From Baffinella frigidus (taxonomy: Eukaryota > Cryptophyceae > Cryptomonadales > Baffinellaceae), in NCBI GenBank assembly GCA_026770585.1, contig MU647611.1, forward strand, positions 16,275 through 48,691: a stretch of DNA of 32,417 bases, in the 5' to 3' direction. This document shows, one piece after another, positions 5,370 to 32,417 of the stretch. Below the pieces are notes generated by a model. That model was not told the origin of the DNA, searched no databases, and was given only the letters and a program-made list of their open reading frames with translations. Every line of letters begins with the position of its first letter. Within the stretch, counting starts at the first letter, position 1. The position numbers and the translations under genes were made by a program.

Positions 5370-5993
5370 CTCGAGGGCACTAGGCCGCGACGACGCTACC
5401 CCCCCAGTGCAGTCCCGCATCAGCGACGAGAGCGCCGCAGCCGCCGTGATCGGAACCTGCTTTGGGGTTCAGGGTTTGGGGGCTTGGATTTTGGGTTCGG
5501 GGTTTCGGGGTTGGGGTGTGGGGTCTAGGATTTAGGGATTGGGTTTAGGGTTTAGGGTTGAGGGTTTAGGGCTTGGGCTTGAGGGTGTAGGGTTTGGGGT
5601 TTAGGGTTTAGGGTTTGAGGATTAGGGTTTAGGGTTTAGGGTTCAGGGTTTAGGGTTTAGGATTGAGGGTTTAGGGTTTGGGGTTGAGGGTTCAGGGTTG
5701 AGGGTTGAGGGGTAGAGGTTTGGGGTTTAGGGTTTAGGATTTGGAGTTTAAGGTATAGGGTTTAGGGTGTAGGTTGTAGGGTTTAGGGTTTCGGGTGTAG
5801 GGTGTAGGGTGTAGGGTGTAGGGTGTAGGGTGTAGGGTGTAGGGTGTAGGGTGTAGGGTGTAGGGTGTAGGGTGTAGGGTGTAGGGATTAGGAACCGCGG
5901 GGCGCTCGCCGGCGACGATGGCAGTCTTCATGTCCGAGAGTTGCATCCCGCCGAACGGATACTCTTCCGCCGCCGCCTCCCAGATCGTCATCC
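5370..5993 (-). CDS. Kinase C-lobe exons (alpha-F to RPS motif)
   Basis: Exon 5896-5993 reads MTIWEAAAEEYPFGGMQ and ends AGERPA. Exon 5370-5456 continues VPITAAAALSSLMRDC and ends SSRPSALE. Together they give the helix F/G region and the conserved Arg-Pro-Ser near the end of TKL kinase domains. The intron between them is about 440 nt of GGGTTTA/GGGTGTA repeats on the plus strand, which is C-rich on the sense strand. The donor after ALE is GTGCGT. The exon after it, with the stop codon, was not identified; an inverted-repeat element occupies part of the following sequence. Confidence 0.85.
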
Positions 5994-8900
5994 CTGTTAG
6001 GGGAGAGGGTTTAGGAACAAAAGTTAAAAGTTAAACGTCAACATCGTTGCGAAATTAACTGGGGTATTCGAAATCGAGAAATGTCGCGCGGCGGCCTTCG
6101 CCTCGCGTCGAACAGCACCGCGCTACTCGCGGATTCAAAGCTGCGCACTGCATGTAGTAGGACGGCACCGGTGGGGCACAGCGCGCATGGGGTAACTTGA
6201 TAGAAAATGTGAAACACCAAATTGTTCATGGGGCGACGGACCTATGGCGTAGACGTCAGACTCGGTGGAGCAGCACTCGCCTCTGTAGAGCTCCGGCGAC
6301 ATGTACTGCGCACCAGGGCAGAGGAGGCGGGGGTTAATAAATTGTCGACCACGACCGTGGCGAGCCAGAAGGCGCGGTGAGACGAGATGTCCTTAGAGGT
6401 CCTCCTCACTTCTGCGAGAAGAAGCAGACCGGCACACAGCACGTGATTTCCTGCCCCAAGAAAGCAACCATTCATCCGAGGAGAGTGTGAAAGACTCGAG
6501 AGGGAACATCGCAAAAGGGGCGCAGAGAGAGGGGCTGCCCCCCCGAGGGGGGGGGGGGGGAAAAGTCGAAAGCCCAGAGTGGAACGTCGAAGGGCTGCCC
6601 CCCCCCCGTTGGGGCTTAGTGCTTTGGGTTCTGGCCCCCCTTTAGAGATTAGGGCTTGTGGGGTGGGGCGCTTAGAGACCTGCGGGGTGCCAGCATCGGA
6701 GCGAGTGTTGGCAACTTCCGAGTTGCGGATCGCCAGCCCGAAGTCGCACAGCTTCGCCACCGAGCGCAGCCCTGCTCAGGGTTTGGGGTTGAGGTTAAGG
6801 GTTTAGGGGGTATCGTTTAGGATTTAGGGTTTAGGGTTTAGGGTTTAGGGTTTAGGGCTTAGGGTTTCGGGTTTGGGGTTGAGGGTTGTGGGTTGAGCGT
6901 TGAGCGTTGAGGGTTTGGGGTTTAGGATTGCTAGGATTCCGCACGACAACATCCAGGATTTGGCGATTTTATGGGCATCGAATGAAGTTGATGCTGGTGT
7001 GTTCGGCAAGGTGGGCATGGGTTCTCGGGTGGTGGGGACCGTCGACGAGGACGTTGTGGGGCTTGATGTCGCGGTGGATGATGGCGGGCGACGACGTGTG
7101 CAGCCACGCCACCGCTGCCAGCCCCCGTCGTCAGTACTCGCACGTCCCCATCACGTCCGTGCACGCCGTGTCAGTGAACCATGGACTCGCAAGTCTCTCT
7201 GTCCCCATCATTTCAACGGCACGGTGCAGTCACGCCGCGCACACGCAGTCACCGCACACCGATTGCCGTGTCCTCGTCACGCTCTCGCTCGCTCTCGCTC
7301 GCTCTCGCTCGCTCTCTCGGCAAAAGGAGGCGGCGAGTGGGCGCAGAGGTGCGGGTGGGGCGAGTGGCGCGGGGTGAGTGGCGCGGGGCGCGGGGCGGAG
7401 CGGGGAGAGACCGGCGGCGAGGCCTGCGAGGAGGTTGCGCTTCTCGACCTTGTTCAGCGGGGGAGGGGGGGCGAGCGGCTCAGGGCGAGTGGCGTCGGGC
7501 GCGTGCGGGCTGGGGGGGAGGGGGGGGACCAGCAGCGAGGCCAGCGAGAAGGTTGCGCTTCTCGACCTTGTTCAGCGGCTCGGCCGGGTGGTGGATCAGT
7601 TCGTGCAGGTTGCCCCCGTCGCACCTGGTTGAGGGTTTAGGGTTAGGGTTGAGGGTGGAGGGTGGAGGGTGGAGGGTGGAGGGTTGAGGGTTGAGGGTTG
7701 AGGGCTGGGGTTGAGGGTGTAGGGTTTAGGGTTGAGGGTGTATGGTTTAGGGTTCGGGGTTTAGGGTCTAGGGGTCAGGGTGTATGGTGCAGGGTTCAGG
7801 GTGTAGGGTGTAGGTTTTAGGGTCTAGGGTTTGGGGTGCACCACTCGAGGACGAGGCAGAGGTTGGAGCCCTGGAGGGACGCGCCCAGGAGGAGCACCAC
7901 GTTCGGATGCCTCACCTGCCACCAACCCCCCGCTCAGGGGAAGCGCATGGGGACCTGCCTCCTCTGTCACCCACAAACCCCGCTCAGGAGTCCGCGTGTG
8001 TCGTCGGAGATCCCCTCCTACTCATACGCAGGGAGGCCTGCTTCTGGCGCCCGCCGCCTCCTCCTCCCTGCGAGGCGCTCATGGGGGGGCTCCTCGCCAT
8101 CATCCTCCTCCTCCAGCCAACCCCCGCCGCCTCCTCCTTGTCCTCCTTGGAATCCAACCTCCCCCGCCAACCTCCTCCGAAAATCTCTGAACCTTTGCAC
8201 GGCCTCCTCGGGGCAGCAAAGCACCCGCTCGTGCATACTGTCTCTCCATCCCCGCCAACTCGCCTGCCTCTCCGTACCCACCAACCCTCCTGCGACACCT
8301 CGTGCGTTGCACCGGCGGAGAACCGCCGAACGTGTCGGGGAGGGGATCCGGATGGTGCGGCGCCTCACTCTGTCTCAGTCTATCTGGTCTCACTAATATG
8401 GTGAGACCAGGCTCTTGCCCGCTCCGAAATTGACGGATATGTACCATACACCCAGCAAGTCAACTTGAGAATAGTCTGACAGTCAACCCGAGTGAGGCAG
8501 AGCTAGACCTCGCCAAGGATGGTGGCCTCTCGGCGGAGGCCTCCTTGAGGACATAGCGTGCGACGCTATCCGGATCCCCAAACCCTGAACGCTACACTCG
8601 GTCAACGCGATGGGTTGAGGTTTTAGGTTGGTGCGGCACCTCGCCGAAGATGGGGGGCTCCCGGCGGAAGTCCTCCGTGCGGTTCGCGGAGGGCGCGCCA
8701 GTCCATCCAAACATTCCCCGTGCAAACCCCGGTATTTCAAAACACATTTTAAATCCTGAAAGTACGAAATGGCTCCAAGGTCAAGCCCGCAGAACGGACC
8801 TCGCCGAGGATGATGCACTCTCGGCGGAAGTCCTCCTTGAGGTTGGCGTCCAGCGCCGCGCGCGGATCCACCGGCCGCTTCACCGCAACCTGCCATCGAC

Positions 8901-10985
8901 ATCTTCTCACCGATGTAGGTCCCACCATACATCCTAACGTGGTCCCAACGCGCCACAAACTGCACGTTCAGAGAGAGAGTTCCGTTATCCGCGGCAGGTC
9001 ATTACTGTTTCAGGACGCAACGGTTCGTTTCGTGGTACTAAATGGTGTGTAGCCAACCCGCCAAGTCGGGACGGTTCGTCTTTCCACGTCCGGTCCGAAT
9101 ACAAAATTCATCGCAACCTGTTTCCACCAAGCCAACCACTTACCAGCCACCGGCGCCTTCGGGAATCGCTCCATCTAACGATTCCCGTACATATTGCAAA
9201 TCGTTTCGCGCGCAACGTGGCCAATCTCTCCCGGAAATCCGGATAGATAGGCACCGGTGGCTGCTAAGTGGGCTGCACGTTCAGAGAGAGAGGTGCTTTG
9301 TTCGCACACCTGAGGCGGGTCCGTGTCACCGTGTGCTGGCAGGACCCGCACTCTAGCTCTGCCTCACTCGGGTTGGCCGACTGTTTGCAAGTTGACATGC
9401 TGGGTGTGCGGTACACTCCCGTCAACTTTGGGGCGGAAAGGAGCCCAGGCTCACCAAATTGGTGAGCCCGAATAGACTGAGACAGAACTAAGCCAAGACG
9501 CATGCGATACAGGGCCATGCAAGACAGGTGCGAGTTACGCAGGGGCGCGTGCTCGTCTCTAGGCTGAGAGTACTAGAGCAGAAGAACAAGGCCGGGCGCT
9601 CGCACCTCGCAGCCTCGCCACGTGCCCTTGTACAGCACTCCCAGCCCCCCTTGCGCAACCTGCGCAGAGTCACCACGCTTCAGCACTTGAATACATCGTC
9701 ATTTAATACAGGATGTGTGCACGAATGGTGCCGGGGGGAGGGGGTGAGAAGCCACTCGAGGCTCGAATCCAAGCTGGAGAAACATGTCCACACTCATGCC
9801 AGTAAAGGTACTGATTAATTGCTTTTCGGGTAACGAAAATTACTTCACAAATGCTTTGCTATTACTGTTACTAGCATGGTCCAATTGAATAGTAATTTCG
9901 TTGCAGAAAAGGCTTTGATCAATGAATGCTCTCAGATGAAATTATCTGGCACCAGACGCTTTCCGTTTCACGACATTACCAGCATGCGCGAATCGTATTT
10001 GAATTTTCGTTGCCCACAACCAATGACGCATACAAAATTCGGACATCAACACTCAGCGCTCGCTGTCACGACCTTGTCTTGATCGTGGAAGTCTATTTCC
10101 TTGATATCCACCTCCAGGACCCCCCCAGCAGCACCCCCCCCCCCTCCGGATGAGGCCGTGTTTTCGAAGACGCTCCCCCCGCCCCGCCGCCGCCCCGTCT
10201 GCGTGAGACTTAGGGTTTAGGGTTTGGGGTTTGGGGTGTAGGGTTCAGGGTTTAGGGTTTGGGGGTTTAGGGTTTAGGGTTTGGGGTTTAGGGTTTGGGT
10301 TTAGGGTTTGGGGTTCAGGGTTTAGGGCTGAGGGTGTAGGGAGGCAGTTCGACCTCGGCACTGGAAGCAGCGGGGTCATCATCAAGCGACAAAGGACCAA
10401 CGTCCAGCCCCCCGGAGTCCTCCCGCGCGGCACGCGCTGCCTGTCGGGGGGGGCAGAAAGCCGTCAGGGTCCCCGCCACGTGCGCGAACCCAGAAGTCTT
10501 CGGGCGCACCCAGGGCAGGCAGAGTATGGTGCTGCCCTTCTGAAATGCGGCGTCCCGAGCTTGGGAAAGGGGGGTGACTGGTCGGGATGGTGTAAGAAGG
10601 ACACGAGGAAATTGACGCGGATGCAGAGACATCCGACGGCGACAAAAAAATGTTTTTCGAGCGCCCGAAGCTCTCATCGCCGCGCATCCCCCGCAGGCGC
10701 TCCGTTTCCGGGGACAGGCGCTTTCGCCACATTTTCTAGGGCGGAAAACGCCTGTCCAGGGGATTCCCCTAATGCAGCCTATTTTGTCCGGCAGACGCTG
10801 CATGCGCTCTGGTGTTGGAGAGGGAGGCCGGGGATGGGCCCCACGGAAGGATGTTGGCGCTGTCTATTGAACCCGGGCACACTGGGAAACGTAGGGAACG
10901 CGTGACGCACCTTCTTCTTAGCGAGGATCTCGGCGAGCTTGCCCGAGTCGCCCATCTTGACGCCAGGTGCAAAGCAGCAATCCAC
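5370..10985 (-). CDS. TKL-like protein kinase, multi-exon, partial
   Basis: Transfers phosphate from ATP to Ser/Thr or Tyr, probably in cytoplasmic signalling. Hand-spliced minus-strand exons are 10911-10985, 10354-10440, 10073-10111, 9606-9659, 8800-8889, 7842-7915, 7530-7624, 7040-7114, 6680-6771, 6242-6305, 5896-5993 and 5370-5456. They sum to 930 nt (310 codons) with matching phase at every junction. In order they give a glycine loop (QGGLGVLYKG), VAVK lysine, alpha-C Glu (FRREC), HPNVV, IIHRDIKPHN, DFG, GTPQYMSPE, SDVYAIG, GERPAVP and a terminal RPS. All catalytic residues are present, so it should be active. The HRDIKPHN loop and the GTWRG strand resemble the tyrosine-kinase-like (TKL) group. 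Neither the start codon nor the stop was found, so both ends are incomplete. Most introns hold telomere-like repeats or small inverted-repeat elements. The kinase identity is very secure; individual splice sites are inferred. Confidence 0.88.
5461..5890. repeat. Telomere-like tract in kinase intron
   Basis: Mixed GGGTTTA, GGGTTGA and GGGTTCA units, then about 12 near-perfect GGGTGTA units (5785-5884). It fills the intron between kinase exons 5896-5993 and 5370-5456. C-rich on the sense strand. Confidence 0.9.
6242..7915 (-). CDS. Kinase hinge, catalytic and activation-loop exons
   Basis: Exon 7842-7915 encodes VRHPNVVLLLGAS and the hinge LVLEW. Exon 7530-7624 encodes CDGGNLHELIHH and helix D/E. 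Exon 7040-7114 carries VAWLHTSSPAIIHRDIKPHN, the catalytic loop. Exon 6680-6771 carries KLCDFGLA and runs to DAGTPQ. Exon 6242-6305 starts YMSPELYRG and ends SDVYAI. Codons split across the junctions rebuild sensible residues (Trp after LVLE, Gly before LRSV, Gly after DVYAI). The acceptor before 7114 has an upstream TACTGAC that looks like a branch point. Confidence 0.87.
6778..6930. repeat. Telomere-like tract in kinase intron
   Basis: GGGTTTA and GGGTTGA units fill part of the intron between exons 7040-7114 and 6680-6771, starting directly at the acceptor. Confidence 0.88.
7410..7460 (-). pseudogene. Partial duplicate of a kinase exon with its donor site
   Basis: It matches 7528-7578 with about 4 differences in 51 nt. 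The copy covers the 3' half of the exon (LNKVEKRNLLAGLAA) and its GT donor. The flanking GGGCGAGTGGCG sequence is duplicated too. Confidence 0.7.
7626..7841. repeat. Telomere-like tract in kinase intron
   Basis: GGGTTGA, GGGTGGA, GGGTGTA and GGGTTTA units cover the whole intron between exons 7842-7915 and 7530-7624. Confidence 0.9.
8368..8502. mobile_element. Small inverted-repeat element, family A
   Basis: The termini are CTCTGTCTCAGTC and CGAGTGAGGCAGAG, with an internal GGTCTCACTAATATGGTGAGACC hairpin near one end. It sits in the kinase intron between 8800 and 7915. Confidence 0.65.
8508..8566 (-). pseudogene. Decayed copy of the kinase alpha-C exon
   Basis: CCTCGCCAAGGATG, then CTCTCGGCGGAGGCCTCC and TTGAGG, matches 8799-8845. 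The copy has lost frame. Confidence 0.6.
8639..8697 (-). pseudogene. Second decayed copy of the kinase alpha-C exon
   Basis: CCTCGCCGAAGATG, then CCCGGCGGAAGTCCTCCG, matches the exon and donor at 8799-8845. TEDFRREPPIFGE is still readable in frame on the minus strand, but the rest has diverged. Confidence 0.6.
8800..10111 (-). CDS. Kinase N-lobe exons (beta1 to alpha-C)
   Basis: Three exons build the ATP-binding lobe. Exon 10073-10111 (13 codons, VDIKEIDFHDQDK) gives the strand before the glycine loop. Exon 9606-9659 (18 codons) carries the loop QGGLGVLYKGTWRGCE. Exon 8800-8889 (30 codons) starts at VAVKRP with the ATP-binding Lys and ends FRRECIILGE with the alpha-C Glu. All three are phase 0. 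The intron between the last two holds a small inverted-repeat element (9357-9486) and a spliced-looking decoy (9144-9272). Confidence 0.85.
9357..9486. mobile_element. Small inverted-repeat element, family A
   Basis: The termini are CTCTGCCTCACTCGGGTTG and GACTGAGACAGA, with a GGCTCACCAAATTGGTGAGCC hairpin near the right end. It is oriented opposite to the copy at 8368. It lies within a kinase intron. Confidence 0.68.
10208..10345. repeat. Telomere-like tract in kinase intron
   Basis: GGGTTTA and GGGTTTGG units lie just after the donor of the candidate exon 10354-10440, in sense-strand terms. Confidence 0.88.
10354..10985 (-). CDS. Candidate N-terminal exons of the kinase gene
   Basis: Exon 10911-10985 (25 codons) reads VDCCFAPGVKMGDSGKLAEI and then LAKKK. 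It lies between a CAG acceptor and a GTGCGT donor. Exon 10354-10440 (29 codons, acidic, containing PLSLDDDPAASSAE) follows a strong pyrimidine tract ending in GACAG. Both are phase 0 and would join in frame to the next kinase exon. No domain is recognised in either. The internal Met in the first could be the true start, or more exons may lie upstream. The 470-nt intron between them shows no repeats that I recognise. Confidence 0.5.
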
Positions 10986-11319: not shown

Positions 11320-12700
11320 TTGAGTTTTCAAAAAGTCGACAAAAAAACAGTAAAAAAGGGATCAAAAAAGGTCAAAATTTGACCACTATGCAGTAAAGCA
11401 ACCTCCATAAGCTCCATAACCACCCTACAGGACCTGTATCGAATGCTTTCTCTGCAGATCCCTTCTACGGAACGGCGTGTCGTTGGCATGTGTTGGGAGA
11501 AATTAAAACCTAAAGGACCTAAAGGATCTCATCACGGCGAGTATTCCTGAGGAATACGAATCTGTTGTATATTGAGGCTCAGAGGATGTTCATATTGGCC
11601 TTTCATATCAGTAACTTCACAATAAATAGCCTCAAGATACACCGAAATCGCATCGATGGTCCCCGAAATCGTATTTCTCAGAAATACTCGTCCGGATGAG
11701 ATCCCCTCTTCACGAGCCTCTGCACTGGAGAGCGAAACGCGATCCGAGAGCAACAATGCTTTCTCCGCAGTCCTTTCTACGGAAGGGCGTGTCGTTGGCA
11801 TATGTTGGGAGAAATCAAAACCTAAAGGGCCTAAAGTAGCCCCCTGAGTAAAGTCCTTTAGGACTTTGTCAAGTCCTTTAGGTGGCTGGAGCTTTTATAC
11901 TCCAACCATGGGATACCATGAGCCTCATAATGGCTGACTTGGGTTCGGTGTGTGCGCGAGCGTGCTCCCACTTGGGACTCCTCAAACACCCCAAGAGAGC
12001 CACCCTGTATCCCCTCTTCACGAGCCTCTGCACTGGAGAGCTAAACGCGATCCGAAAGCAAAAATGCTTTCTTTTCAGATCCCTTTTACGGAACGGCGTG
12101 CCGTTGGGCTATGTTGGGAGAAATTAAAACCTTAAGGACCTAAAGGACAAAGAAACTGTTCGTAAATAACCTGGAATTGGATAATCCATAGACCCTGCGG
12201 CAGGCAATTGCGTATGGACATAGGGGACTTGCTACGGGTAAGGTCACGGAAAGGCGACGCGAATCGGGCCAAGTGTCAAAATTTGACCACTTGGCAACCA
12301 GATTTCAAAAATTAAAAATCACTTTTTCCCTTTTTTGAAGGTTCCACACAGCGGACTTCGAAGGGATTTCGAATAACCCTTGAGCGATAAGACGTGGGAC
12401 CCTACGGCAGGCAATCCAAAGGGACATGGGGGGGGTTCCTACGGAAAAGGTAACGGAAACTCGGGCTCTCAGAGCGCGAACATCCCTGGAGAGTTGAGTT
12501 TTCAAAAAGTCGACAAAAAAAACATGAAAAAGAAACAAATTTTGCTGGCTATGCAAGGTTCCTCAAGGACCTCGTTTTTTCCCCACACATAGCGGACTAC
12601 AAAGGGATTTCTTTAATAACCCGAAAATGGATAATCTGTAGACCCTGGTGGGCAATACGGTACCGGATGGACATAGGAGGCTATTCTTAACTACCCTGGA
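11320..12700. repeat. AT-rich repeated unit with paired blocks
   Basis: The block GAGTTTTCAAAAAGTCGAC recurs at about 11324 and 12498. CAAAATTTGACCAC recurs at about 11372 and 12278. A GGATAATC..AGACCCT..GGCAAT block recurs at about 12178, 12395 and 12630, and GCGGACTNCNAAGGGATTTC at about 12351 and 12592. No gene was seen. Confidence 0.6.
11690..12150 (+). mobile_element. Dispersed repeat family C, two plus-strand copies
   Basis: Copy 11690-11840 and copy 11880-12150. The longer copy starts with GAGCTTTTATACTCC, passes GGATACCATGAGCCTCATAA, CTGCACTGGAGAG, GCAAAAATGCTTTC and GGAACGGCGTG, and ends ATGTTGGGAGAAATTAAAAC before a tail of CCTAAAGGA units. It resembles a SINE-like or non-autonomous retroelement by its repeated tail, but no tRNA-like head was seen. 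A fragment lies at 11435-11530. Confidence 0.6.
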
Positions 12701-13019
12701 ATAAATGGGTTGAAATGAACCCCTCAGAGTTCTAAACTTTCCCAAAATCAACGGCAGTTTCCAGCTGAATTCAGTTTTTGGCGGCAATTGGGAGTTTCAT
12801 GATACACGGTACCGTAGATTTTGGGTAAGCGTGGATTTTTTTTGGGTTAGCGTGGAAATTTTCGAGATCAGGTCGGGGGCTCAGTTTGTGTTTAAGAGAC
12901 AGAAAGATAAAGAAACAAAGTGTGAACTTTTGCAGCACCCGATATTGGAACTCTTAACCCTTAACCCTTTAGGTCCTTTAGGTTTTTCGAGCTCCCAACA
13001 TCGGCGGACACCAACACCC

Positions 13020-13335: not shown

Positions 13336-13351
13336 GCAGATGTGTAGGGTG

Positions 13352-13412: not shown

Positions 13413-13435
13413 ACACCCTACATCCTACACCCTAT

Positions 13436-13590: not shown

Positions 13591-13687
13591 GAATGAAGGT
13601 CCGCTGCACGAGCGGGCTTATATCTCCTGGTAGTCGACGTGACTGTGTAAAGTCACCCCAGTCATCCTACATGGGGTTGTATCACCA

Positions 13688-15420: not shown

Positions 15421-15421
15421 T

Positions 15422-18024: not shown

Positions 18025-21000
18025 GTCCTGCCCGTCCTCCCTCCCTGTCCCCCCCTCCCGCGTGCGGCTCGCGCGTGTGCTTCGGATGGGGAGTGATGCG
18101 CTTGAGAAGTTGTGCCAAGGGGTGCGTTTTTATAAAAAAACTTGGTTGTACGCGGGTGCCGGCTGACAAGGGGCGTGTGGGAGCACAGATACATCGGGCA
18201 ACGGCGCTGCTGCCATGCATGCATACTGTTTGCGCGGGATGCGCCTCCAAATCGCTCGCACGCTCCGACACCTGCCCCTTGTGCCGCACTATGGTGCTTG
18301 GGGTGGGGAAGGTGTTCGCCTTGAACGCGGCAGTGGATGTTTTCCACGCATCTGTGCCCGGACGGAAGCGCCCGGCCGAGGAGCTGAGCAAGATGGACGA
18401 GGACGAGGAATCGCTCGCGGGGCAGGTGCAGCGCATCGTGCGGCAGCGGCATGGTGTCTCGATCCTCCAAGCGGTGCAGGACGGGGACCTGGCGGCAGTG
18501 CTGGACGGTCTCCTCAACGGGGCCGACGTCAACGAGCGGCCGTTGGGGGGAGGGTCGCTGCTGCACATTGCAGTGGATGCGGAAGACATACATATGGTGA
18601 GGACACCCAACACCAAAACCCCACACCTCAACCCCAGAACACTAAACCCTAAACCATGAACCCAGAACCCCAAACCCTAAACCCTCAACCCTAAACCCCA
18701 GACCCCAAACACTACGAATGGACCATGCATCCTAAACCATAAAGCCTACACCCTACACCCTAAACCCTAAACCCTGAACCCCAAACCCTAAACCCTAAAT
18801 CCTAAACCCTAAACCCTAAACCCTAAACCCTAAACCCTAGACCCAAAACCCTAAACCCTCAACCATAAACCCCAGACCCCAGACCTCAAACCCTCAACCC
18901 TCAACCCTAAACCATAAACCCTACATATGAACCCTGCCCCCTCAACCATAAACCCTAAACTCTGCACCCTAAACTCTAAACCCTTGACCGCAAACCCTAA
19001 ACGCTACACCCTGGACCCTAAACCCTAAGCCCTAAACCCTGAACCCTAAACCCCAAACCTCTGACCCCAGACTGTCAACCCTGACCCCTACACCCCAAAC
19101 CCTACACATAAACCCTGCACCCTAAACCATAAACCCTACACCCAAAACCCTAGACACAAACCCTAAAGCCTACACCCTAAAGCCTACACCCTGAACCCTA
19201 CACCCTAAACCCTAAACCCTATACCCTACACCCCAAACCCTCAACGCTAAACCCAACACCTGAACGTAAGCAATGAAACCCACACCCTTCACCATAAACC
19301 CTAACCCATAAACTCTAATCCCTAATCCCTAAACCCTAAACCCCAAACCCTAAACCCTACACCCTAAACCCTCAACCCTCAACCCTAAATCACCCTAAAC
19401 CCCAAACCCTCAACCCTAAACCCCAAACCCTACAACCCAAACCCTTAACCCCAAACCCTAAACCCTACACCCCACACCCCAAACCCTATTCCCAAAGCCT
19501 GAACGGTACACCTTGAACCGTGAAACAGGTGAGAGCGCTGCTCGCATCGGGGCCAGACCTCGAGGTGGAGGCAGCGGACGGGTAAACCCCACACCCCAAA
19601 CCCTCAACCCTAAACCCTATACCCTACACCCTAAACCCCAAACCCCAAATCCTCAACCCTAAACACTTAACCCTGAATTCTGCACCCTGAACCCTGAACC
19701 CTAAACCCTGAACCAGGACTGCGTTGAACCTTGCGGCTCAAATCGGTGACTTCGAGATCCTCCTGGCCTTGCTGGAAGCGGTTTAATAAACCCCAATCTC
19801 TTAACTCCAAACCCCATGACCGAATTCCGAAACCCGAAACCCGAAACCCGAAACCCGAAAACCTAAGCCCTAAACCCTAAACCCGAAACACGAAACACGA
19901 AACCCGAAAATTCCAACCCTACACCCTGAACCAAAAACCACAAACCACAGACCACAAACCCCAAACCTCAAACCCCGAACCCCACACCCCAAATCCAAAC
20001 CCCCAAACCTCAAACCCCAAAGCAGGGCGCCGACGGCGACGAGATCATAGATCTGGAGGAGGGGGGGGCTTTGTTGATGGAGGCGGCTCGCAGGGGCCTC
20101 GCGAGAGCAGTTGGAGCGCTGGTGCAGGACGACGCAAACGGGGTGTCCCTGGCCGACAGCAGCGAGACCGACGAGGATGGGGTGTTCCCGCTGCTCGAGG
20201 CCTCTCGCAGGGGGTTCCCCGAGGTGGTGCGGGCGCTGCTGCGGGGGGGCGCGGCAGCCGATCAGGCCACGACCATCGCCGACCGCTACGGCGACGAGCA
20301 CAGGGGCGTCACGGCGTTGCTCGTGGCGTGCGCGGAGGGGCATGGTGAGACGGTGGAGGCGCTGCTCGAGTGGGGGGCGACGCCGTGCCTCGAGGACGCG
20401 CTCGGGGTGTGCCCGCTGCTCCAGGCGTGTCAGAGTGGCCACGCGGATGTGGCGCGGAGACTCCTGAGGAAGGGCGTCTTCCCGAATCGGGCGGGCAGGG
20501 GGAAGGAGCAGGAAACCGCGTTGATCGCGGCTTCTGCGGGGGGGTTCGTGGAGGTGGTGCGGGCGCTGCTTGAGCACGGCGTGGATGTGCATCAGGGGGA
20601 CCACCGGGGGCGGTCTGCCTTGTTTTTCGCGTGCCAGTGTGACCCCGAAGTGCTCGAGCGTTATGCCAAGTGGCAGACGGTTTGGCCGAACGAGTATGTC
20701 CCGAGAGATCGCCGGCCGCTCGATGTCGTCTCTGCGCTGCTTGAGCACGGCGCTGACGCGAATCAGGCGGACAGGGATGGGGAGTGTGCGCTGAGGATGA
20801 CGGGGGACGTGGGGCGTGTGCGGATCATGCGGACGCACAGGGCCGACGTGAACCAGTGCGACAGCAAGGGGCGGAGCGTGCTCCTGCACTGCATGGACAC
20901 GCAGCTGCACCTGGAGGTGCACGAGCTGGGCTTTGCGTGGGACGAGGGATCATCCCAGGATGACCATCCTGAGGAGGAGTCGAGCAGGGTGCGCGCGGCT

Positions 21001-22803: not shown

Positions 22804-24119
22804 CTAGGCGCCCTCGTCTCCGCCCTGGACTTGCGAGGTAGGCCGCTTCCTCGGGACGATACCCGGGGCGCACCCCTTGGCGTCTTCGGGTGCAGCGGGA
22901 GGGCGCGTCTTCGCAACGAGCCCCGCACGAAGGTCCTCGAGGCGGCTGAGCATCCACGCGCGCAAGTTCTCCGGGGCGTCGCAGCACGTCTCCCCGCTCG
23001 CCACGAACGTCACGTGGAACGCCGCGACCCTCCCCCCGAGCCGCGTGCACCCGCCACCCTACAGCCTGAAGCGCCCCGCGTACATCTCTCGGATCTCCCC
23101 ACGCACAACCTCATCGCCCTCCGCCTCCCCCGGCTGCTCCGCACCGATGGCAGCCCGCACGTCCGCAAGGTGCGTCTTGGCCGATCCCGGACGCTCGGGC
23201 ATGATCTTGCCCCACGGGGCGCGGTCCGGGACGGGGAGCGTGCAGCACAGCCGCGGAAAGGCGCGGGGGGACGCCGTGGAGAGCGCAGGTGCCGGCACGC
23301 TGGGGAACGTGGGGCACTTGCGGGCGAGGAGTGCGCGTAGCTCCAAGACCTGGGCGTACCGGCCGTGGCAGCGCGGGTGAGTGCGAGGTCCGAAAGGAAG
23401 CATGGCCATTCTGCAGATCCTTTCCACGGGAGGGCGGGGTGTCCGCCTATGTTGGGGGTGATTTGAATGGACCTAAACGGAGGGGATCCACGCTTGTGGT
23501 GCTGCGAACACGCATGCGATTTGGAGCAACTCGTGGCACCGGGGGTCAACCCCTCATCCCAAACCCTACACCGTACACCCTAAACCCCGAACCCCAAACC
23601 CTCAACCCCAAACCCTACAGCAAGATGCTGGGCAAAAGCTGTGGAAGGCGAACAGGAGTGTCGCACGGGCCTAGCGCGGGGGGGGTGCACACCGCGGAGA
23701 TTGCACATGACCTCTATCGGCGTACATAAATGGCCGCCGTGTTGGTAGCAATACAGGTCTTTCTCGTTCTCTGGGGTCAGACGGGGCAGCGCAGGATGGA
23801 GCTATTGGATAAGGTTTGGAATACCTCTCGCTGAAAGTGCCCCACGGATTCGCCCACGACTTTCACCTGTGTTGGGGTTTCGGGTTTCGGGCTTCGGGTT
23901 AGGGTTTAGGGTCCAGGGTTCCGGTTTCAAGGTGTAGAGTGTAGGGTGTAAGGTGTAGGGCGTAGGGTGTAGGGTGTAGGGTGTAGAATGTGGGGTGTAG
24001 GGTGTAGGGTGCAAGGTGTAGGGTGTCGGGTGTAGGGTGCAGGGTTTGACCGTGCCGGCGACCGTGGTGAGCAGAGGCACGGTCTGCCGGGCGAGGGTCT
24101 GTCTCTCGCACACATGCTC
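22804..24119 (-). CDS. SAP gene, C-terminal exons
   Basis: Exon 24063-24119 (19 codons, EHVCERQTLARQTVPLLTT) follows a TTTGGCAG acceptor. Exon 23063-23349 starts VLELRALLARK and reaches EMYAGRFR. Then either a TAG at 23059-23061 ends the protein, or a 33-nt GTAGGG..GGGAG intron is removed and the frame continues AAFHVTFVASGETCC to a TAG at 22804. The downstream part looks protein-like in that frame (ENLRAWMLSRLEDLRAGLVA). No domain is recognised here. Confidence 0.5.
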
Positions 24120-27100
24120 CTGCCAAACCAGGAACGCCGCTTCAGGTTGCTCCGCCCTGAGGTCCAGATATTTCAGCTGACTGATCGAAGATTCACATCT
24201 TCAAGCAGTTGCGTGTGTCCCTGCTCGCTCTGATCTTCACGCAGTCGTCGCCCGCGCTACTAAGCGAGGTGACCGACTTAGAAGGGTCATGGATGCTTCC
24301 GGTGGGAGCTCACCCCAGATACAGATGGGACATATTTTGGATCCTACAGTAGGCCTACAGTAGGCCTACGTATACATCCCTACAGTGGTCCTGATTGTGG
24401 GGGGGGGGGCTCTTTATGATCACGGATGCTTTCGGTGGGAGCTCACCCGCGGCTCCCCCAGCGTGAACTCAAACCCGCACCGCGCGCACCCCCCCCCCCG
24501 CCACACACACCCCGCCTCGTGCGCCCCCACGTCCCTCCGCTGCACCTGCCTCAGGATTTACGGTTTAGGGATCAGGGTTTGGGAATTAGGGATTAAGGGG
24601 TAGGGGGTACCTGGGCGGTGCACCCCGCGTGCGTGCACGCGGCCACGGCGAAGTTGCACTCCGCCAGGTGCTCCGCGAGTGCGCCCAGCCTCCCGGTCCA
24701 GCCGCACGTCTCCTGCGCGCCAACGCCCGTTCGTTCGCGGATGACGCCAGCCCCGGTCGGGACCGCGTGGCGGGGGCGTTTGGAAGGGCGCCCGGAGGCG
24801 GAGGGGGGGGGGGAGTTGAGGCGATTCGCTGGTGGCGCCGGGAGGTCGTCGGGGCCGAGACCTGCGGACGCGCCAGTAGTAATGAGGACGTGGTCTGAGG
24901 ATGTGACAGTGGCAATGAGGACGTGGTGTGAGGACGTGCCAGTGGCAATGCGGACGTGGTGTGAGGACGTCTCAGTGGTGATGAGGACGCGACCTGGGGA
25001 GAGGGTGCCGTGGAGATCGGGCGCAAAGTTGGCGCGCCGTTTCCTGGAGGGGGGAGAGTCGCTTTACTAAACCACAGCGCGGAATATGCCAATAGTGGTC
25101 ATGATTATGACAAGGCAGAGTTACACTGCCTGCTGTGCGCACTGTAAACACAAGGTGCATAGTTTCGCATGCGTGTTTTGAGGGGGGGGTCTGCAACCTG
25201 AGGCCGTTGGCGATGGCTTGAGGCGAGAGGTTCTGGACATGGCCGACACCACTGCTCCAGGGAGTCAGCAAGGTGTCAGAAGTTGATGGCCAGATGCCCA
25301 AGTCTCTTTGCTGCGCGCTCGGACCCATGCGAGGTATATCCTTGCAAGGCATGCCCCGAATCCGCTACGGCAGATGCGTCCCGCGCAGGACGCATCCACG
25401 CCAGGGCATACTCCGAAATTTCATTTGACTACACCATCTACGAGTAAAATTGATTCTGAGGGGGAAACACGCCATTTTTTTGGGAATTGGAGCCCTTTGT
25501 TTGCGGAATAATAAGAATTTGTATCGGGATCAGGTTCATTGACACTTTTAGTGCGAATCGTTGCGTTTGAAATTTGCATTTATGAACTTGCGTGGCTTGA
25601 TGGAGGCACTCACTCGGGATGCGGCCAGTCTCCTGGATAAGGTTGAATCTATGTGCTAAGCTTGAAGCGGGTCTAACAGGAATCAACCATCGCGATTGGG
25701 TGTTAGGGGAGAGCAGCTGTGCCGACAAAGGTTCGCTTGATATGATATGATATCAAGCAAACCTGAGATCAAGCGAACCTCACCTCGGTTGGCATCGTCG
25801 AAGGAGCGCTTCAACATCAGAAGAGTACGGGGGGGGGGTCCACGCAAGAAGAGACCGAGAGGTTCTCGTTGGAAAAACGTGGACTAAAAATAAGGGAGGG
25901 GGGAGGGGGGGGGTCCTTACGAGTTGTAGAGTTTGATCACCACGCTGGAGAAAATCGCCTCTTTCACAAGATCTGCAGGGTCGAGAACTCCGTAGTGGCC
26001 CGGAAAGCCCCACCAGCTCCCCTGCTCGCCTGCCCCGCGCTCGAAGCTCCTCGGGTGTTTGGCTCGGAGAGAGATGGCGAAGGTGCGGGCATCCAAGATG
26101 CGCTCCACCAGGGCATGCCTGCTCCCCCCGGACAAAGAAAGACCAGCGTCCCTGCAGAGATCCTTGAGATGAATCCCGGAGAGCTGCTCCAGCGTGCTCC
26201 TGTCCTGTGCCGGGGGAGGAGGAGGAGAGGCGTTAGCGGTTGGGGCATCGACAAAGCGACAGCGGCACCCCGACCCTCGCTTCTGACTCGAGAAAGATCT
26301 CATCACCAAATCATGCCTGCTACGCTGTTGACCACACTCCGCCACTCCGAACCGATGACCCACAATCCATGGAAAGACGTGTGCCAGTCAAGTGGCGCGG
26401 CTATTCGTACCCAGACGACAGCGGCCGCCATCTCTTCCTCGAGGGTGGGAGCAGCCCCCCCGGCTCCCTCACCCCCCCCCGTGGCCGAGGACGACCACAA
26501 CGCAGTGAGGTTGAGAAGATCCAAAGGAAGCTCAACAACGTCGTCGTCGTCGAGGGCGGGCGCGAAGTTGGCGCGCCGTTTCCTGGATCAGAGACACGTC
26601 GCGTCACGGAATCAAGGCAAGGGTGGTAATGATGACATGGAGGAGAAGATCGAGGCGCATCGATGACACTGCTGCGCGCTGCAAATGCAAGGCGCCGGGT
26701 TGCGCAGGCATGTTTCGGGTGGGTCGTCTGCAACCTGAGGGACTTGACCAGAGTTTCAGACGACTTCCTCTGGAATTCGTTGGCACCACTGCTCGAGGCA
26801 ACGCAGCGAGGCGTCAGGAGCGTGTGTTTGGATGGCCAGTAGTCCTGCTGCGCCCCCGAAACCGAGCGACCAACATGATTGCATGGCATCGAACGAACCC
26901 GCAACTCAAACAATCCATTGTTCACTGGCGAAGCACAGTTCCAACCCTTCAACTACGCTTGGTGTGGGTCAAATGTGCGCTTGAAGTCCCGCATAGAAAA
27001 TAATGGGGGTAGATTTTGCAGAGCTGAGACAACGGTATAATGAGAAGATGCGGGGACTTGGGAGGCTCACGGGTTATGGAAATTGAGATGCACGCCGCTG

Positions 27101-30100
27101 AAATCCGCCTCCTTCTCCAGATCCGCAGACTGGAGGACTCCGTAGTGCCCCGGGAAGCCCCACCAGCTCCCCTGCTCGCTCGCACCGCGCTCGAAGCTGC
27201 TCGGGTGCTTGGCGCGGAGAGAGATGGCGAAGCTTCGGGCATCCAAGATGCGTTCCACCAGATCAACCTTTTTCCCGACCACCGTCATTCCAGAGTCTCT
27301 GGCGAGATCCTTGAGCGCTTCCCCGGAGAGCTGCTCCAGCGTGCTCCGGTCCTGTGCCGGGAAGGGGGGGGGGGGGGAGACGTCACCGGTTGGATCATCG
27401 AAAGGGACCGCGACACCCCTAGCCTAGCCTAGCGTCTCTGTCGAGTGCTTCTCACGAGGCAGTTTCTCTCGAGAGGCGGTTTCCACCACCGGATGATCCC
27501 TGCTCCACTCCTCCCCGACCACCCCCCCACCAATCCGAACTGCGACCTACAATCCATCCAAAGACGTGCGCCAATTGGTCTAGGTGCCGAGGTGGGTCTT
27601 CGTACCCAGATGACAGTGGACATCATCTCTTCCTCAAGGGTGAGAGCAGCCCCCCCGGCTCCCTCACCCCCCCCGTTGGCCGAGGAAGACCACAACGCCG
27701 CGAGATCGAAGCGATTCATAGGAATCTCAACGACGTCGTCGAGATCGGGGGCGAAGTTGGCGCGCCGATTCCTGGATGAGAGACAATCGCGTCACGGAGA
27801 CCACCGCATATATGATCGTGAAGATCAAGACACTTCTGCGCCCCGCGATTCGCCGGCATTGTTTTTTTTGGGGGGGGGTTGCAACCTGAGGGCCTTGGCG
27901 AGTGCTTCAGGCGACTTGGTCTTGCATTCGCCGGCAATGCTGCTCAAGGGAATTTAGAAGTCAGCGAGGTGTCAAGAGTGTGTCTGGATGACTAGGTCTC
28001 TTCCTACGCGCTCGGAACCAACCGCCCAGCACACTACAAGCGTTTGGTGTTTCGGGGTTAGGGGCTTAGGGGTTTAGGGGTATAGGGTTTAGGATTTGCA
28101 AGTTCTGGCCCGAAGCTGCTCCAGAAAGAATCCGTGTTCAAGCATTCACTCAGCAAACATGGTTCCAGTCTGTGTTTCAAGCTTGGTCCACCCTTATCAA
28201 GGGTCTAACCATAACGTGCATCCTATCATCTCCACATTCGGTCAAAACAACTACCACGATTGGGTGCAAGGGGGGAGCAGCTGCGCTGAGGTTAGCTTGA
28301 TCAAAGGCGCGCTGGAGCTCCAAAATCATAAGAAAAAGAGAGAGGGGCGTCAGAAGGGAATGAAGAAGCTCCAACTAGGTTGGGAAACGGTACGCACGCA
28401 CACAAGAGGGGAATTGAAGACGTACCGATAACTAGTGACGACCACTGCCGAGAAAACCGCCTCTGCCTCGAGATCCGCAGGATCGAGAACTCCGTAGTGG
28501 CCCGGAAAGCCCCACCAGCTCCCCTGCCCGCTCGCCCCGCGCTCGAAGCTGCTCGGATGTTTGACTCGGAGAGACGCCGCGAAGGTGCGGGCATCCAAGA
28601 TACGCTCCACCACTTCATGCCTGCTTCCGACCACCATGAGACCCGAGTCTCTGCAGAGATCCTTGAGTGGTTCCAAGAAGAGCTGCTCCAGCGTGCTCAT
28701 GTCCTGTACCGGGGGAGGGGGGGGGAGAGACGTCAACGGTTGGCGCATCGACGAAGGAATCGCTCCCCACCTCTCGCTCCTCACTACAAGAGGCGGTTTC
28801 CATCACCGCATCTGTCCTGCTCCACTGCTCTCCGACCCCCCCCCCCCACTCAGAATCTACGACCTTCAATTCATGCGACGACGTGTGCCAATCTTATCTT
28901 GGAACATACCAGAATCTGTGGGTAAATACACTCATCTGAGCCTTGTTTTTATGCCTAAATAGCACACCCACCCTTATCTTCGGCGTTGGAAGCCTTAAGA
29001 TCGCCACATAATCCGGTATGTTCCGAAATGAAATGAATGCATGTGCCGTGGTGGGCCTCCGTACCCAGCCGGCCACACCCGTGGCCGAGGATGCCCACAC
29101 CGCCGCGAGATTGAAGCGCCCCGAAGGAGACTCCAAAGGAAGCTCGACGAAGTCGGTGAGGTCATACCCGAGACACTCGCCACGCCGTTTCAGCAGGCTC
29201 ACTCGGAGCTGGCTGGCACTCTTGTCCCTCCGCCTAAGCCTGTTTGGGTTTGGGTTTAGGGTGCAGGGTGAAGGGTGGAGCGTGAAGGGTGTAGGCCGGC
29301 GGGGTTGCAGTGGTTGTGATTCAGAGGTGTGAACCTACGATGGGACTGAGCGGGGGCTCTCTCGAAAGGTACCCTGCCCGATTCAGTCAAGCGTCGTGGG
29401 GGCATGTGACCTCCCACGAGGTTGGGGGCGTTTTAGTAGTTCAGGTTTAGGGGTTTGGGTTTAGGGTTTAGTGTTGAGGTTTTAGTGTTGAGGTTTTAGT
29501 GGTTAAGGGTTTAGGGTTTAAGGTTTAGGGTTGCGGGGGGGTTTCGACTTTTCCGAGGTGGGCCTATCGGCTCGCTGTCGTGAGGATCACACTATGCTAG
29601 GCTTGAGAGTAGTAACGAAGGAGAAGAAAAAAGAGAAAAAAAAGGAGAAGAGGGACAAGCAGAAGTTTGGTTGCGCTAAGGTAGTCCTGATGAGTCCTTC
29701 CACGGAACGGCGAGGCATCCGCCCATGTTCCTATCTTGTCAGCAATTAACCCCTTCCTAAAGGATCTGAAGAATCTACCTCTCGTAGAACGTGAGGGTCC
29801 AGTACAAAGCACATCCAACCGTATTTACTGAGGCCCCTTGATTAACTGAGGCAGATATAGAGTGTGACTTGGATTCTCTTTAACCCCAATGCAAAAACGT
29901 CTCATAATTCGAGGGTCCGGGCCCCAGAAAAACCAGTACCGGGGGCACACGTGAGGCAGAGGTCCCCTACCCCATCCTGTCGTAGATCGTGAGGGCCACC
30001 CCCTCGCAGAGCGCCTCCTCTTGTAGATCCTTCAGCTTCATCTGGTGTAGAGTTTAGGTTTGAGGGTTCAGGGTTCAGGGTTAAGGGTTTGGGGTTTGGG

Positions 30101-30231
30101 GTTTGGGGTTTGGGGTTTAGGGTGTAGGGTGTAGGGTGTAGGGTTTGGGGTTTCGGGTTTTAAAGGTTGAGGGTTTGAGGTTCAGGGATCAGGGTGTAGG
30201 TTGTAGTGTTTAGGGTTCAGGGTTTGGGGGT

Positions 30232-30305
<74 letters not shown>

Positions 30306-30533
30306 GTAGAGTTTCACCTTTTCGTAGTCGGCCCGGCTGCCCCGCCACCTCCCCGCAATGCTCCTGGGGGTGAGCACCAGAGTCGATTTGATCACACGTG
30401 ACGACCGCGGAAAGTTGAGGTTCGGCAGGTTCAGGAGAGGGAGGTTCAGAAGGGTCCCAAGGCGGGCCCGTCTCACGCCGGAGCTGAGGCGGGCCCGTTT
30501 CGCGGGGTTCAGGAGGCAGGGTTCATGAGACAT
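22804..30533 (-). CDS. SAP-module repeat protein with TRAF-type zinc finger
   Basis: Hand-spliced gene with 16 exons: 30318-30533, 29971-30041, 29065-29212, 28426-28703, 27886-27939, 27606-27771, 27071-27351, 26735-26788, 26411-26582, 25921-26204, 25198-25251, 24611-25043, 24447-24545, 24063-24119, 23063-23349 and 22804-23029. The sum is 2880 nt (960 codons with stop) and every phase matches. SAP domains bind AT-rich DNA or chromatin, so a nuclear role is likely; PAKRAR near the N-terminus could be a nuclear signal. Three copies of a SAP segment are followed by GSWWGFPGHYGVL, a motif I do not recognise. A TRAF-type Cys/His finger follows, which in known families mediates protein contacts, often in ubiquitin signalling. 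The start (ATG at 30533) is the first Met of an open first exon and may not be the true one. The 33-nt last intron is doubtful. Confidence 0.75.
23540..23775 (+). pseudogene. Plus-strand gene-end fragment inside a SAP-gene intron
   Basis: A CCCTAAA/CCCCAAA tract ends CCCTACAG, then about 95 nt of exon-like sequence follows. After that comes GGCCGCCGTGTTGGTAG with CAATACAGGTCT, which matches GGCGGCAGTGTTGGTAG with TAATAAAGGTCT in the 3' end of the FHA-RING-ankyrin gene (21802-21830). It looks like the last intron, exon and 3' end of a related gene copy. Confidence 0.4.
23875..24050. repeat. Telomere-like tract in SAP-gene intron
   Basis: GGTGTAG units with GGGTTTCGG at one end, C-rich on the gene's sense strand. 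Confidence 0.88.
24346..24412. mobile_element. Family B core remnant
   Basis: GATCCTACAGTAGGCCTACAG, with the word repeated, then CTACAGTGGTCCTG and an 11-G run match the core of the copy at 3858-3982. The terminal arms are not recognisable. A further weak core lies at about 4999-5060. Confidence 0.4.
24447..25251 (-). CDS. Fourth Z-X copy fused to a TRAF-type zinc finger
   Basis: Z4 is 25198-25251 (54 nt, LSPQAIANGL). The next exon, 24611-25043 (433 nt), starts like other X exons (KRRANFAPDL), then runs into an 11-residue repeat (TSSHHVLIAT type), a Pro/Ser-rich stretch and CGWTGRLGALAEHLAECNF with a further Cys pair. Exon 24447-24545 continues VQRRDVGAHEAGC, then CARCGFEFTLGEPR. The Cys/His spacing fits the TRAF-type zinc finger family. 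An 11-C run (plus strand) in the last exon is in frame as given; one base more or less would break the gene. Confidence 0.75.
24871..24990. repeat. 33-nt in-frame minisatellite
   Basis: About 3.5 copies of a 33-nt unit (plus-strand core GTGGCAATGAGGACGTGG) encode an 11-residue repeat in the SAP-gene exon with the zinc finger. Confidence 0.8.
25730..25785. repeat. Palindromic sequence
   Basis: AGGTTCGCTTGATATGAT faces ATATCAAGCAAACCT, and a third arm ATCAAGCGAACCT follows. It lies in the intron after Y3; a related but non-palindromic sequence lies at about 28290-28310. Confidence 0.65.
25921..26788 (-). CDS. SAP gene repeat module 3 (exons Z3, X3, Y3)
   Basis: Z3 26735-26788 (54 nt, KSSETLVKSL). 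X3 26411-26582 (172 nt, RRANFAPALDDDDVVELP, LNLTALWSSS, PTLEEEM). Y3 25921-26204 (284 nt, HLKDLCRDAGLSLSGGSRHA then LVERIL, and GSWWGFPGHYGVL). The donor after Y3 is GTAAGG. Size differences from module 2 are all multiples of three, as expected if the copies are kept coding. Confidence 0.82.
27071..27939 (-). CDS. SAP gene repeat module 2 (exons Z2, X2, Y2)
   Basis: Z2 27886-27939 (54 nt, KSPEALAKAL). X2 27606-27771 (166 nt, RRANFAPDLDDVVEIP, then FDLAALWSSS, a Gly-rich stretch and LTLEEEM). Y2 27071-27351 (281 nt). Y2 has the most canonical SAP sequence of the three: ALKDLARDSGMTVVGKKVDL followed by VERIL. Z ends CTCAG/GTTGCA, X ends TGG/GTACGA and Y ends before GTGAGC. Identical positions are used in module 3. 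Confidence 0.8.
28048..28097. repeat. Short telomere-like tract in SAP-gene intron
   Basis: GGGGTTTA-type units between exons Y1 and Z2. Confidence 0.7.
28426..28703 (-). CDS. SAP exon Y1
   Basis: This exon is 278 nt (92 codons plus 2 nt). It starts DMSTLEQLFLEPLKDLCRDS, a SAP helix pair, then VVERILDARTF, KHPSSFERGA and GSWWGFPGHYGVL. The acceptor is a pyrimidine tract ending GGTACAG; the donor is GTACGT. Compared with Y2 and Y3 it differs by whole codons in length. Confidence 0.8.
29065..30533 (-). CDS. SAP gene, N-terminal exons
   Basis: Exon 30318-30533 (72 codons) starts MSHEPCLLNPAKRARLSSG and ends WRGSRADYEK before a GTGAAA donor. Exon 29971-30041 encodes MKLKDLQEEALCEGVALTIY and then DRM plus two bases. 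If this exon were not spliced at its GTAGGG donor it would stop at once. Exon 29065-29212 (first X exon) has LLKRRGE, TDFVELPLE and FNLAAVW, and ends before a TGG/GTACGG donor. It lacks the Gly-rich acidic part of the other X exons. The two introns hold GGGTTTA-type repeats on the plus strand. The acceptor of the first X exon is the weakest choice. Confidence 0.55.
29236..29300. repeat. Telomere-like tract in SAP-gene intron
   Basis: GGGTTTA, GGGTGCA and GGGTGAA units just upstream (sense) of the first X exon. A second tract in the same intron is at 29440-29535. Confidence 0.8.
30050..30310. repeat. Telomere-like intron 1 of the SAP gene
   Basis: It fills the whole intron 30042-30317 and includes 11 perfect GGGTTGA units (30229-30305) and GGGTGTA units. 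C-rich on the sense strand. Confidence 0.9.
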
Positions 30534-30910: not shown

Positions 30911-31020
30911 CTGAATTGTGACAACACTTTTTTTGTTACAACCCTCTTTTTTAGAGGGGTGGAATACCTGGGTCGCACTGCGCCGGAGACCTCTTGCAGC
31001 GCGCGTGCCACGTCCTTTGT

Positions 31021-31228
31021 TTACGGTTAAGGTTTAGGGTTTGGGGTTTAGGGTTTAGTGTTTAGTGTTTAGGGTTGAGGGTTGAGGATTGAGGGTTTGA
31101 GATTTAGGGTTTAGGGTTTACGGTTTAGGGTTAAGGGTTAAGGGTTAAGGTCTAGGGTTGGGGGTTTAGGGTTTAGGGTTGAGGGTTTAGGGGTTAGGGT
31201 TTAAGGTCTAGGGTTTAGGGTTTACGGG
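31021..31228. repeat. Telomere-like tract
   Basis: GGGTTTA and GGGTTAA units just downstream of the stop codon of the rightmost gene; another short tract in that gene's intron is at 31499-31535. Confidence 0.88.
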
Positions 31229-31253: not shown

Positions 31254-32104
31254 TCAGGTCGCGGGGGCAAACCTCGCGAGGTTAGGACGTAGAGGCGTGG
31301 GGATGCAAGAGTCTTTCCACGCAAGGGCGAAGTTTGCGCCTATGTCGGGAATCTGTCAATTGCAAAGGTTGACCTCAGGGGTTTCGAAGAGCGGAGTGAG
31401 CGAGTCGATGAGGGCTTCCTTCTGCATGGTCGGACATGCCACGCCCTTCGTCTTGCAAATTCCCCACAGCTCCGTGCAGGTAACCTGCAGCGGACTCGTG
31501 GGGTTAGGGTTTAGGGTTGAGGGTCTGGGGTTTCACTCCCAGGACCTCACCTACCCTCTTCCCACCATGCCTCACAGCTCTGTGCAGAGGCGGGTCAGTT
31601 AAATGCGGAAACGGATTCAATTTGAAAGAATGGTGTGTGCTATCTCAAGGATGCAATTTGCAATCTTAGCCTCGAAATAGCTGTACAATGGAACCAAACC
31701 AACCCTAAGATAAAAAAAAGGTGGTCTGACAGGACGCCCCGCCCCCAAGGAAGAACCCTTGCTTGATCGCACTGCAAGACCGCGGCAATCGCAGGTGCAT
31801 CGGAGGGTGGGATGTGAGGGTAGAAGCGCCTGAGAGAATTGAGGCCAGAGATTGGCCAGAGGTCCAGGAGAGATGTGAGGGCGAAAGCCCAGGTACCCCA
31901 CATAACCTGAACAAAACGCGCGATGAAATAAACCACAAAATGTGAGAGCACCTGGATGCCATCGAACGGCGATGAGAAGCTCTCGGAGGACCCCCCCCTG
32001 CCACCCCTGAGGGCCGCGCTGGCGTTGGCGCCATTGGAGTTGTTGGAGCCATTGCTATTGGGGCCGTTGCCCCCCCCGTCCAAATCCTCGTCCACTCGCG
32101 CCGC
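31254..32104 (-). CDS. Unrecognised gene, 3' exons, with SAP-like segment
   Basis: Three phase-0 exons were found. 32104-31952 (51 codons) encodes VDEDLDGGGNGPNSNGSNNS and a Gly/Ser/Asn-rich stretch ending SPFDGIQ before a GTGCTC donor. 31484-31374 (37 codons) encodes CTELWGICKTKG and MQKEALIDSLTPLF, which loosely follows the SAP pattern. 31352-31254 (32 codons plus TGA) encodes IPDIGANFALAWKDSC and LRPNLARFAPAT. The 31374/31352 gap would be a 21-nt intron, which is doubtful; without it the frame stops within that gap. Upstream exons lie beyond the window. Telomere-like repeats fill the 31.5 kb intron and the sequence upstream of 32104. Confidence 0.45.
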
Positions 32105-32417
32105 CTGGTTTGGGGTTTGGGGTTTGGGGTTTGGGGTTTGGGGTTTGGGGTTTGGGGTTTACGGGTGGGAGTTTAAGGTTTAGGGTGTCGGGGTTTCGGT
32201 TTAGGGTTTTGGGGTTAGGATTTAGGGTTTAGGGTTTAGGATTTGGGGTTTGGGGTCTGGGGTTTGGGGTTTGGGGTTTGGGGTTGGGGGGTTGGGGGGT
32301 TGAGGCTTTAGGTTTACAGTTGAGGGTTTGGGGGTTGGGGTGTAGGGTGTAGGGTGTAGGGTGCAGGGTGTAGAGTGTAGGGTGTAGGGTGCAGGGTGTA
32401 GGGTGTAGGGTGTAGGG
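32105..32417. repeat. Telomere-like tract at right edge
   Basis: GGGGTTT units, then GGGTTTA and GGGTGTA units to the window end. It begins exactly at the acceptor of exon 31952-32104. Confidence 0.92.

Follow-up and report, generated by a model that had tools for sequence, protein, structure and literature searches.

Telomere-like repeats as introns read C-rich on the sense strand in a cryptophyte-like nuclear genome

Introners are repeated elements that give rise to introns in number, and interstitial telomeric sequences are telomeric repeats at internal chromosomal sites; both bear on what is described here. In the portions of PMC9860276 drawn on here, target-site duplications of 3-9 bp and terminal inverted repeats are traits of only some introner families, and the word telomer is absent from the main text. 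The available part of PMC7215372 describes telomeric insertion with duplication of the flanks at staggered breaks in the horse, and states that it has yet to be examined whether telomeric repeats within introns affect splicing. Cryptophyte genomes assembled from long reads are often more than half repeats, according to the part of PMC12220804 consulted. Here we analyze 32,417 nucleotides of DNA from Baffinella frigidus (the window), part of the 70,348-base contig C1118 in an assembly of 382,457,362 bases and 1,364 contigs, in which tracts of a telomere-like CCCTAAA repeat lie within genes. A first-pass annotation of the window had placed these repeats between splice sites and noted that they almost always read C-rich on the sense strand.

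Tract-bearing introns and their strand

We read the tracts as introns, or as the 3' portions of introns, that belong to the nuclear genome of an alga resembling cryptophytes. The genome is of ~382 Mb, and its closest named protein relatives come from cryptophyte algae; the spliced kinase of the window matches Rhodomonas lens with 57% identity and a kinesin matches Hanusia phi (63% over 60% of the query), each near the top of its match list. Amorphochlora was rejected as the source, since its telomere repeat is TAACCC and its GC content 27% (PMC12730881). We use the label telomere-like for the heptamer unit, not for this species' own terminal repeat. The exact sequence (CCCTAAA)x3 is found at 53,120 places in the 1,364 contigs (27,288 forward and 25,832 reverse), so that a telomeric repeat lies at internal sites as in interstitial telomeric sequences, while the same word read backward occurs 14 times forward and 13 times reverse in the whole genome. 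Within the window a cyclic seven-state model of the heptamer called 28 tracts covering 4,583 bp, and three base shuffles of the window yielded 0 bp. Reversed repeats resemble the model (3,429 bp was still called), which makes a reversed-sequence control uninformative, and shuffles and exact words were therefore used as controls. Examined for near-identical copies of the introner kind, the tracts have the heptamer in common yet vary in length and in variants. The window has no match in Rfam at gathering scores.

Four gene spans were set by hand, and 15 of the 28 tracts fall inside them. In the kinase span 927 of the 951 tract bp are C-rich on sense, and the tract is so over its whole length in the RING-ankyrin span (1,284/1,284 bp), the gene at 23.86-24.80 kb (229/229 bp) and the rightmost gene span (817/817 bp). 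The exact limits of eight introns with tracts could be established (Table 1). All are GT..AG; seven consist of 82-98% tract and one of 57%.

Evidence for removal of the tracts comes from the kinase, where eight exons join into an open frame of 221 amino acids. Over these 221 residues the joined exons are 100% identical to P0001, a protein of 266 amino acids from a contig of 972 bp with the source tag 'lgn'. The eight exons cover ~3.5 kb of the genome, and so the short contig points to an origin in spliced RNA. P0001 crosses seven kinase introns; large tracts that are C-rich on sense lie in three of these, and a fourth has a 24-bp reverse tract only. The domains of the RING-ankyrin gene were assigned by Pfam, and no identical transcript is present among the listed matches, but relatives that are ~60% identical cover all three of its junctions (P0121 and P0123) or two of them (P0124), with no gap or insertion at the junctions. 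Six tract-bearing introns of the window, three in each of these genes, are thus absent from spliced or homologous proteins, and together with the GT..AG ends this is what is expected of introners. Beyond the window, an intron in a kinesin gene (L029) is bridged by the relatives P0241 and P0242, with an alignment gap of four residues near the junction.

These results confirm the intronic, C-rich-on-sense placement given in the first-pass annotation. Of the four gene models it relied upon, the kinase, the rightmost gene and the plus-strand gene at 18.6-20.0 kb are retained, while the tracts ascribed to the SAP genes could not be placed in a verified gene. The latter (28.04, 29.24 and 29.43 kb) are among the 13 window tracts outside verified genes, as is the tract at 23.55 kb that had been named as the single counter-example. 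There is in fact a second, the 24-bp reverse tract in the kinase.

We have sought the same strand relation in genes chosen by Pfam family, disregarding repeats. Kinesin (PF00225, 45 genome matches) and chaperonin (PF00118, 10 matches) were used, taking contigs with at least two collinear matches, which gave 15 kinesin and 3 chaperonin loci with 69,348 readable bases; the intervals between their exons may hide unseen exons or nested genes. Kinase loci outside the window (108 matches) were left out of the counts, and families of low yield (PF00501, 2 matches; PF00122, 1; PF12774, 9) contribute none of the 18 loci. Tracts are present in 15 of the 18, and C-rich on sense is the prevailing orientation in every one of the 15 (P 6e-5). 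The C-rich-on-sense orientation accounts for 110 tracts against 14, for 10,808 bp against 695 bp, and for 158 against 4 occurrences of the exact ten-base word CCCTAAACCC, although neither the tracts nor the words are independent observations. Orientation therefore follows gene strand in 15/15 further tract-bearing genes, as had been proposed for the window, and with 158 words against 4 the repeats have the skewed strand within genes that marks an orientation-biased intronic element. A general bias in intron composition was rejected as the cause, since the skew of non-tract introns in the same 18 loci is small (GC skew -0.04; AG 53.7 and CT 57.0 per kb).

The boundaries of the tracts resemble those of introns. 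Among 107 merged sense tracts from the 18 fetched loci and the window genes, CAGG lies within ~18 nt of the 3' edge in 41 and of the 5' edge in 10, against a background of 10.3%. GGT is found at the 5' edge in 52/107 and at the 3' edge in 38/107 (background 24.5%), the latter elevated in part because CAG/GT junctions supply it. Across the whole genome GCAGG stands within 12 bases after CCCTAAACCC 1,476 times and before it 561 times. For GCGGT the counts are 526 before the word and 166 after, and the permuted GGACG, a control for the 3' side, comes after it 267 times. These genome counts include overlapping starts within one tract and cover the C-rich reading, and the variants within G-rich introns themselves contain such words. 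C-rich tracts thus tend to start after a donor-like word and to stop before an acceptor-like word, like introns on the sense strand.

How the orientation may be set

We lean toward a reading in which telomere-like DNA enters genes, copies that are C-rich on sense are spliced out, and selection through splicing sets the orientation; we infer both that the tracts arose by insertion and that selection is responsible for their orientation. The repeats would get into genes probably in the course of break repair. Lying C-rich on sense, an insertion would give the transcript a long stretch nearly devoid of YAG/G, GGT and G-quadruplex motifs, and this stretch, bounded by G/GT on the left and AG/G on the right, would be spliced out. 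In the opposite orientation each unit would present UUUAG/GG, GGU and quadruplex-forming runs of G; the gene would be harmed and the insertion lost. Orientation would then be set after insertion, the harmful orientation being removed by selection through splicing. Selection for splicing had been suggested beforehand, and among the classes of explanation it has the best support: per kb, the window tracts contain 0 YAGG and 0.2 GGT when read C-rich, compared with 64 and 114 when read G-rich, and sense tracts often extend to 3' splice-like sites. The accompanying argument, that random insertion of telomeric DNA would not follow gene strand, overlooks selection after random insertion, which would produce just this pattern.

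The G-rich-on-sense tracts in genes (15 tracts and 719 bp, window genes included) have a median length of 44 bp, compared with 78 bp, and are poorer in YAGG (37.6 against 57.0 per kb), though not in GGT or AG. Being short and poor in YAGG, they fit a filter against a harmful orientation. UAGGG-type words are binding sites for hnRNP A-type splicing repressors, and quadruplexes form in telomeric RNA that is G-rich. Repressor binding or quadruplexes could be the target of selection.

The same data bear on orientation-dependent stability, in which transcribed arrays that are G-rich on sense form R-loops, and quadruplexes on the displaced strand, and break or contract, whereas C-rich-on-sense arrays persist and grow, splicing having no role. 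Quadruplex motifs number 70 in the G-rich reading of the window tracts and 0 in the C-rich reading, and are found in 22 of the 28 tracts; the shorter G-rich-on-sense tracts, and the fact that other repeats bearing AG or GT are not oriented, are also consistent with it. Yet it leaves unexplained both the splice-like sites at tract edges and the presence of whole introns made of tract, and we regard it as unlikely, if the most serious of the alternatives.

Positive selection for the branch point and C-rich tract that every unit could supply, as put forward in the first-pass annotation, seems to us very improbable. In its favor, CTAAAC occurs 26.8 times per kb in the C-rich reading and 0 times in the other, and many tracts extend to an acceptor-like site. 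However, any C-rich telomeric tract has CTAAAC, so its frequency is not independent evidence. Moreover, among the 917 heptamers counted in sense tracts, 398 belong to variants that lack a CTNA word (CCCTACA, CCCTATA, CCCTAGA, CCCCAAA, CCCGAAA and CCCAAAA), showing that the word is not kept throughout.

For introns composed almost wholly of telomeric units the simplest reading is that DNA was inserted and turned into intron, and short duplications are found at the two ends of some: GGTGC, GGTTCC, GGTGAG and CAGGT in the window, AAGGT in L029 and GGTCG in L034. Many clear tract introns lack them, and the GG at both junctions is splice consensus and not an insertion signature. In the junctions read no inverted repeats at the ends were seen by eye, no formal test being made. 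Tested against shuffled partners, runs of at least five number 6 where 2.7 are expected (P 0.03), or 6 against 3.1 (P 0.08) with another merging of tracts. Taking the window tracts alone, runs of at least six number 3 against 0.8 (P 0.02), one of the three being aligned off the true junction. With a signal this weak, target duplications were discarded as proof of insertion. The tandem SAP paralogues were likewise considered for what they might show of an empty site, and are too diverged.

Several results weigh against selection through splicing acting on inserted DNA. The duplications just described are one, for run thresholds of four or six give no significant excess, and across all 165 tracts there are 7 duplications against 5.1 expected (P 0.23). 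Other simple repeats are another: in the same genes (GA)n lies on sense 31 times against 11 for TC, and (GT)n 9 times against 2 for AC, a few loci dominating the counts. With both runs if anything more frequent on sense, there is no plain avoidance of AG or GT, and avoidance of these dinucleotides as such is unsupported; AG is scarcely depleted in non-tract introns either. Furthermore, the contrast between genes and other loci is unclean: where no gene is known the minor strand makes up 19% of 11,060 bp, compared with 6% in gene loci, so that such loci are more mixed yet still favor one strand. Finally, L013 (2791-6629) has an RWP-RK exon on the minus strand (2.4e-12) and, beyond its open frame, a C-rich tract of ~2.3 kb on the plus strand, possibly a counter-example or else part of a neighboring gene.

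The duplications bear too on directional insertion, in which the DNA is placed C-rich on sense at the outset, whether by break repair or telomerase at work in genes under transcription or by a mobile carrier of the repeat. A ratio of 158 words to 4 is strong for a filter acting alone, the duplications at some introns do contain GGT, and telomerase-linked insertion with duplicated flanks is described in the horse in the available part of PMC7215372. Against this, the duplications taken together are scarcely above chance, and the GG shared by the junctions is accounted for by splicing. An exposed GG of the horse type, in register and extended on the sense strand, would moreover be expected to give the G-rich orientation. 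We therefore consider it improbable that orientation is fixed by the inserting mechanism, which the first-pass annotation had offered beside selection, and the pattern does not need it.

An extension of the preferred reading, selection through splicing after insertion, is that telomeric DNA has been a main source of new spliceosomal introns in this lineage, with insertions becoming introns at birth where coding sites are compatible with G/GT and AG/G, and the C-rich orientation alone surviving. This we propose tentatively, and would place it short of an even chance.

Other features of the window

The positions of the introns and tracts are collected in Table 1.

Table 1. Tract-bearing introns and other telomere-like tracts of the window
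Feature	Position	Strand	Remarks
Kinase intron C/D	7625..7841	-	97% tract, C-rich on sense; GTGC duplicated at ends
Kinase intron E/F	6772..7039	-	57% tract, C-rich on sense
Kinase intron H/I	5457..5895	-	98% tract, C-rich on sense; GGTTCC at either end
Tract between upstream kinase exons	10210..10341	-	C-rich on sense; putative junctions, placed by eye
24-bp tract of opposite orientation in kinase intron B/C	8574..8597	+	Counter-example
RING-ankyrin intron 1	18597..19528	+	98% tract, C-rich on sense; GGTGAG at either end
RING-ankyrin intron 2	19582..19716	+	98% tract, C-rich on sense
RING-ankyrin intron 3	19781..20025	+	96% tract, C-rich on sense
65-nt intron of putative zinc-finger-like gene	24546..24610	-	82% tract, C-rich on sense; CAGGT at both ends; from frame and junction alone
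Tract presumed to lie in the gene of the 65-nt intron	23872..24047	-	Orientation as in that intron
Intron of rightmost gene	30042..30317	-	95% tract, C-rich on sense; from frame and junction alone
Tract in rightmost gene span	31019..31227	-	C-rich on presumed sense
Tract preceding acceptor-like site, rightmost gene	31500..31533	-	Putative, without homology support
Tract up to acceptor-like site, continuing past window end	32107..32417	-	Putative, without homology support
Tract earlier named as counter-example	23548..23617	+	Not in a verified gene

Between 25780 and 29200 on the minus strand there are three similar gene copies in tandem, with strongly diverged introns between them. A SAP domain lies above or near the Pfam cut-off in two copies (2.8e-5 and 0.0012), and the third copy matches a related model weakly (0.0071). 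At 13011-13436 tracts of opposite orientation lie a few bases apart (13342-13382 minus and 13385-13436 plus), an inverted arrangement also present in L033 and L036. The tract at 32-91 has the identical 15 bases CGGAGAGCGAGTCAC on either side, perhaps a duplication around the tract. A dispersed repeat with CCTTTAGGTTTTAATTTCGCCCAACAT-like sequence was seen by eye at 11460-17330, in several copies and both orientations.

Outside the window, L012 contains on its minus strand (2-1072) an open frame with an RVT_1 domain (1.2e-16), ~4 kb from a telomere-like tract. It was considered as a telomere-linked retroelement and rejected; the PDB entries that its reverse transcriptase matches by sequence are retroviral and related enzymes, with nothing that points to telomeres.

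Comparison with known systems

We found no report of telomere-like introns or of their strand bias in the open-access literature, searched by title and the start of the abstract, with most subscription journals lying outside that search. The components are known, and within the open-access literature covered their combination appears to be new. Our analysis suggests DNA like that of chromosome ends as raw material for introns. If this is true, telomeric insertion would be a way of gaining introns on a massive scale that has not been described; a tandem repeat would join the known sources of new introns, tying telomere biology to gene structure. It would also provide a natural experiment on the tolerance of the spliceosome at genome scale, with one repeat in two orientations at thousands of sites, and the strand rule would aid gene finding in the lineage.

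The comparisons that follow are with the parts of each source that were available. As in introners (PMC9860276), many introns of one genome consist of one kind of repeated DNA and have GT..AG ends, and some introner families take their splice sites partly from the site of insertion. Here, in contrast, the body of the intron consists of a tandem telomere-like repeat that is degenerate and varies in length, and duplications are weak. Interstitial telomeric sequences at double-strand breaks (PMC7215372) likewise place telomeric repeats internally, with duplication of the flanks at some loci, but their intronic share of 31% in human is that of chance, whereas here they make up whole introns oriented by gene strand. 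A parallel for the orientation is provided by human intronic endogenous retroviruses (PMC1794541), which also have a strand bias in genes, and for which harmful splice signals of one orientation have been discussed. Those are retroviral elements lying within introns, and their bias is a preference; the repeats described here are tandem, often constitute the whole intron, and follow the strand of the genes read here far more strongly.

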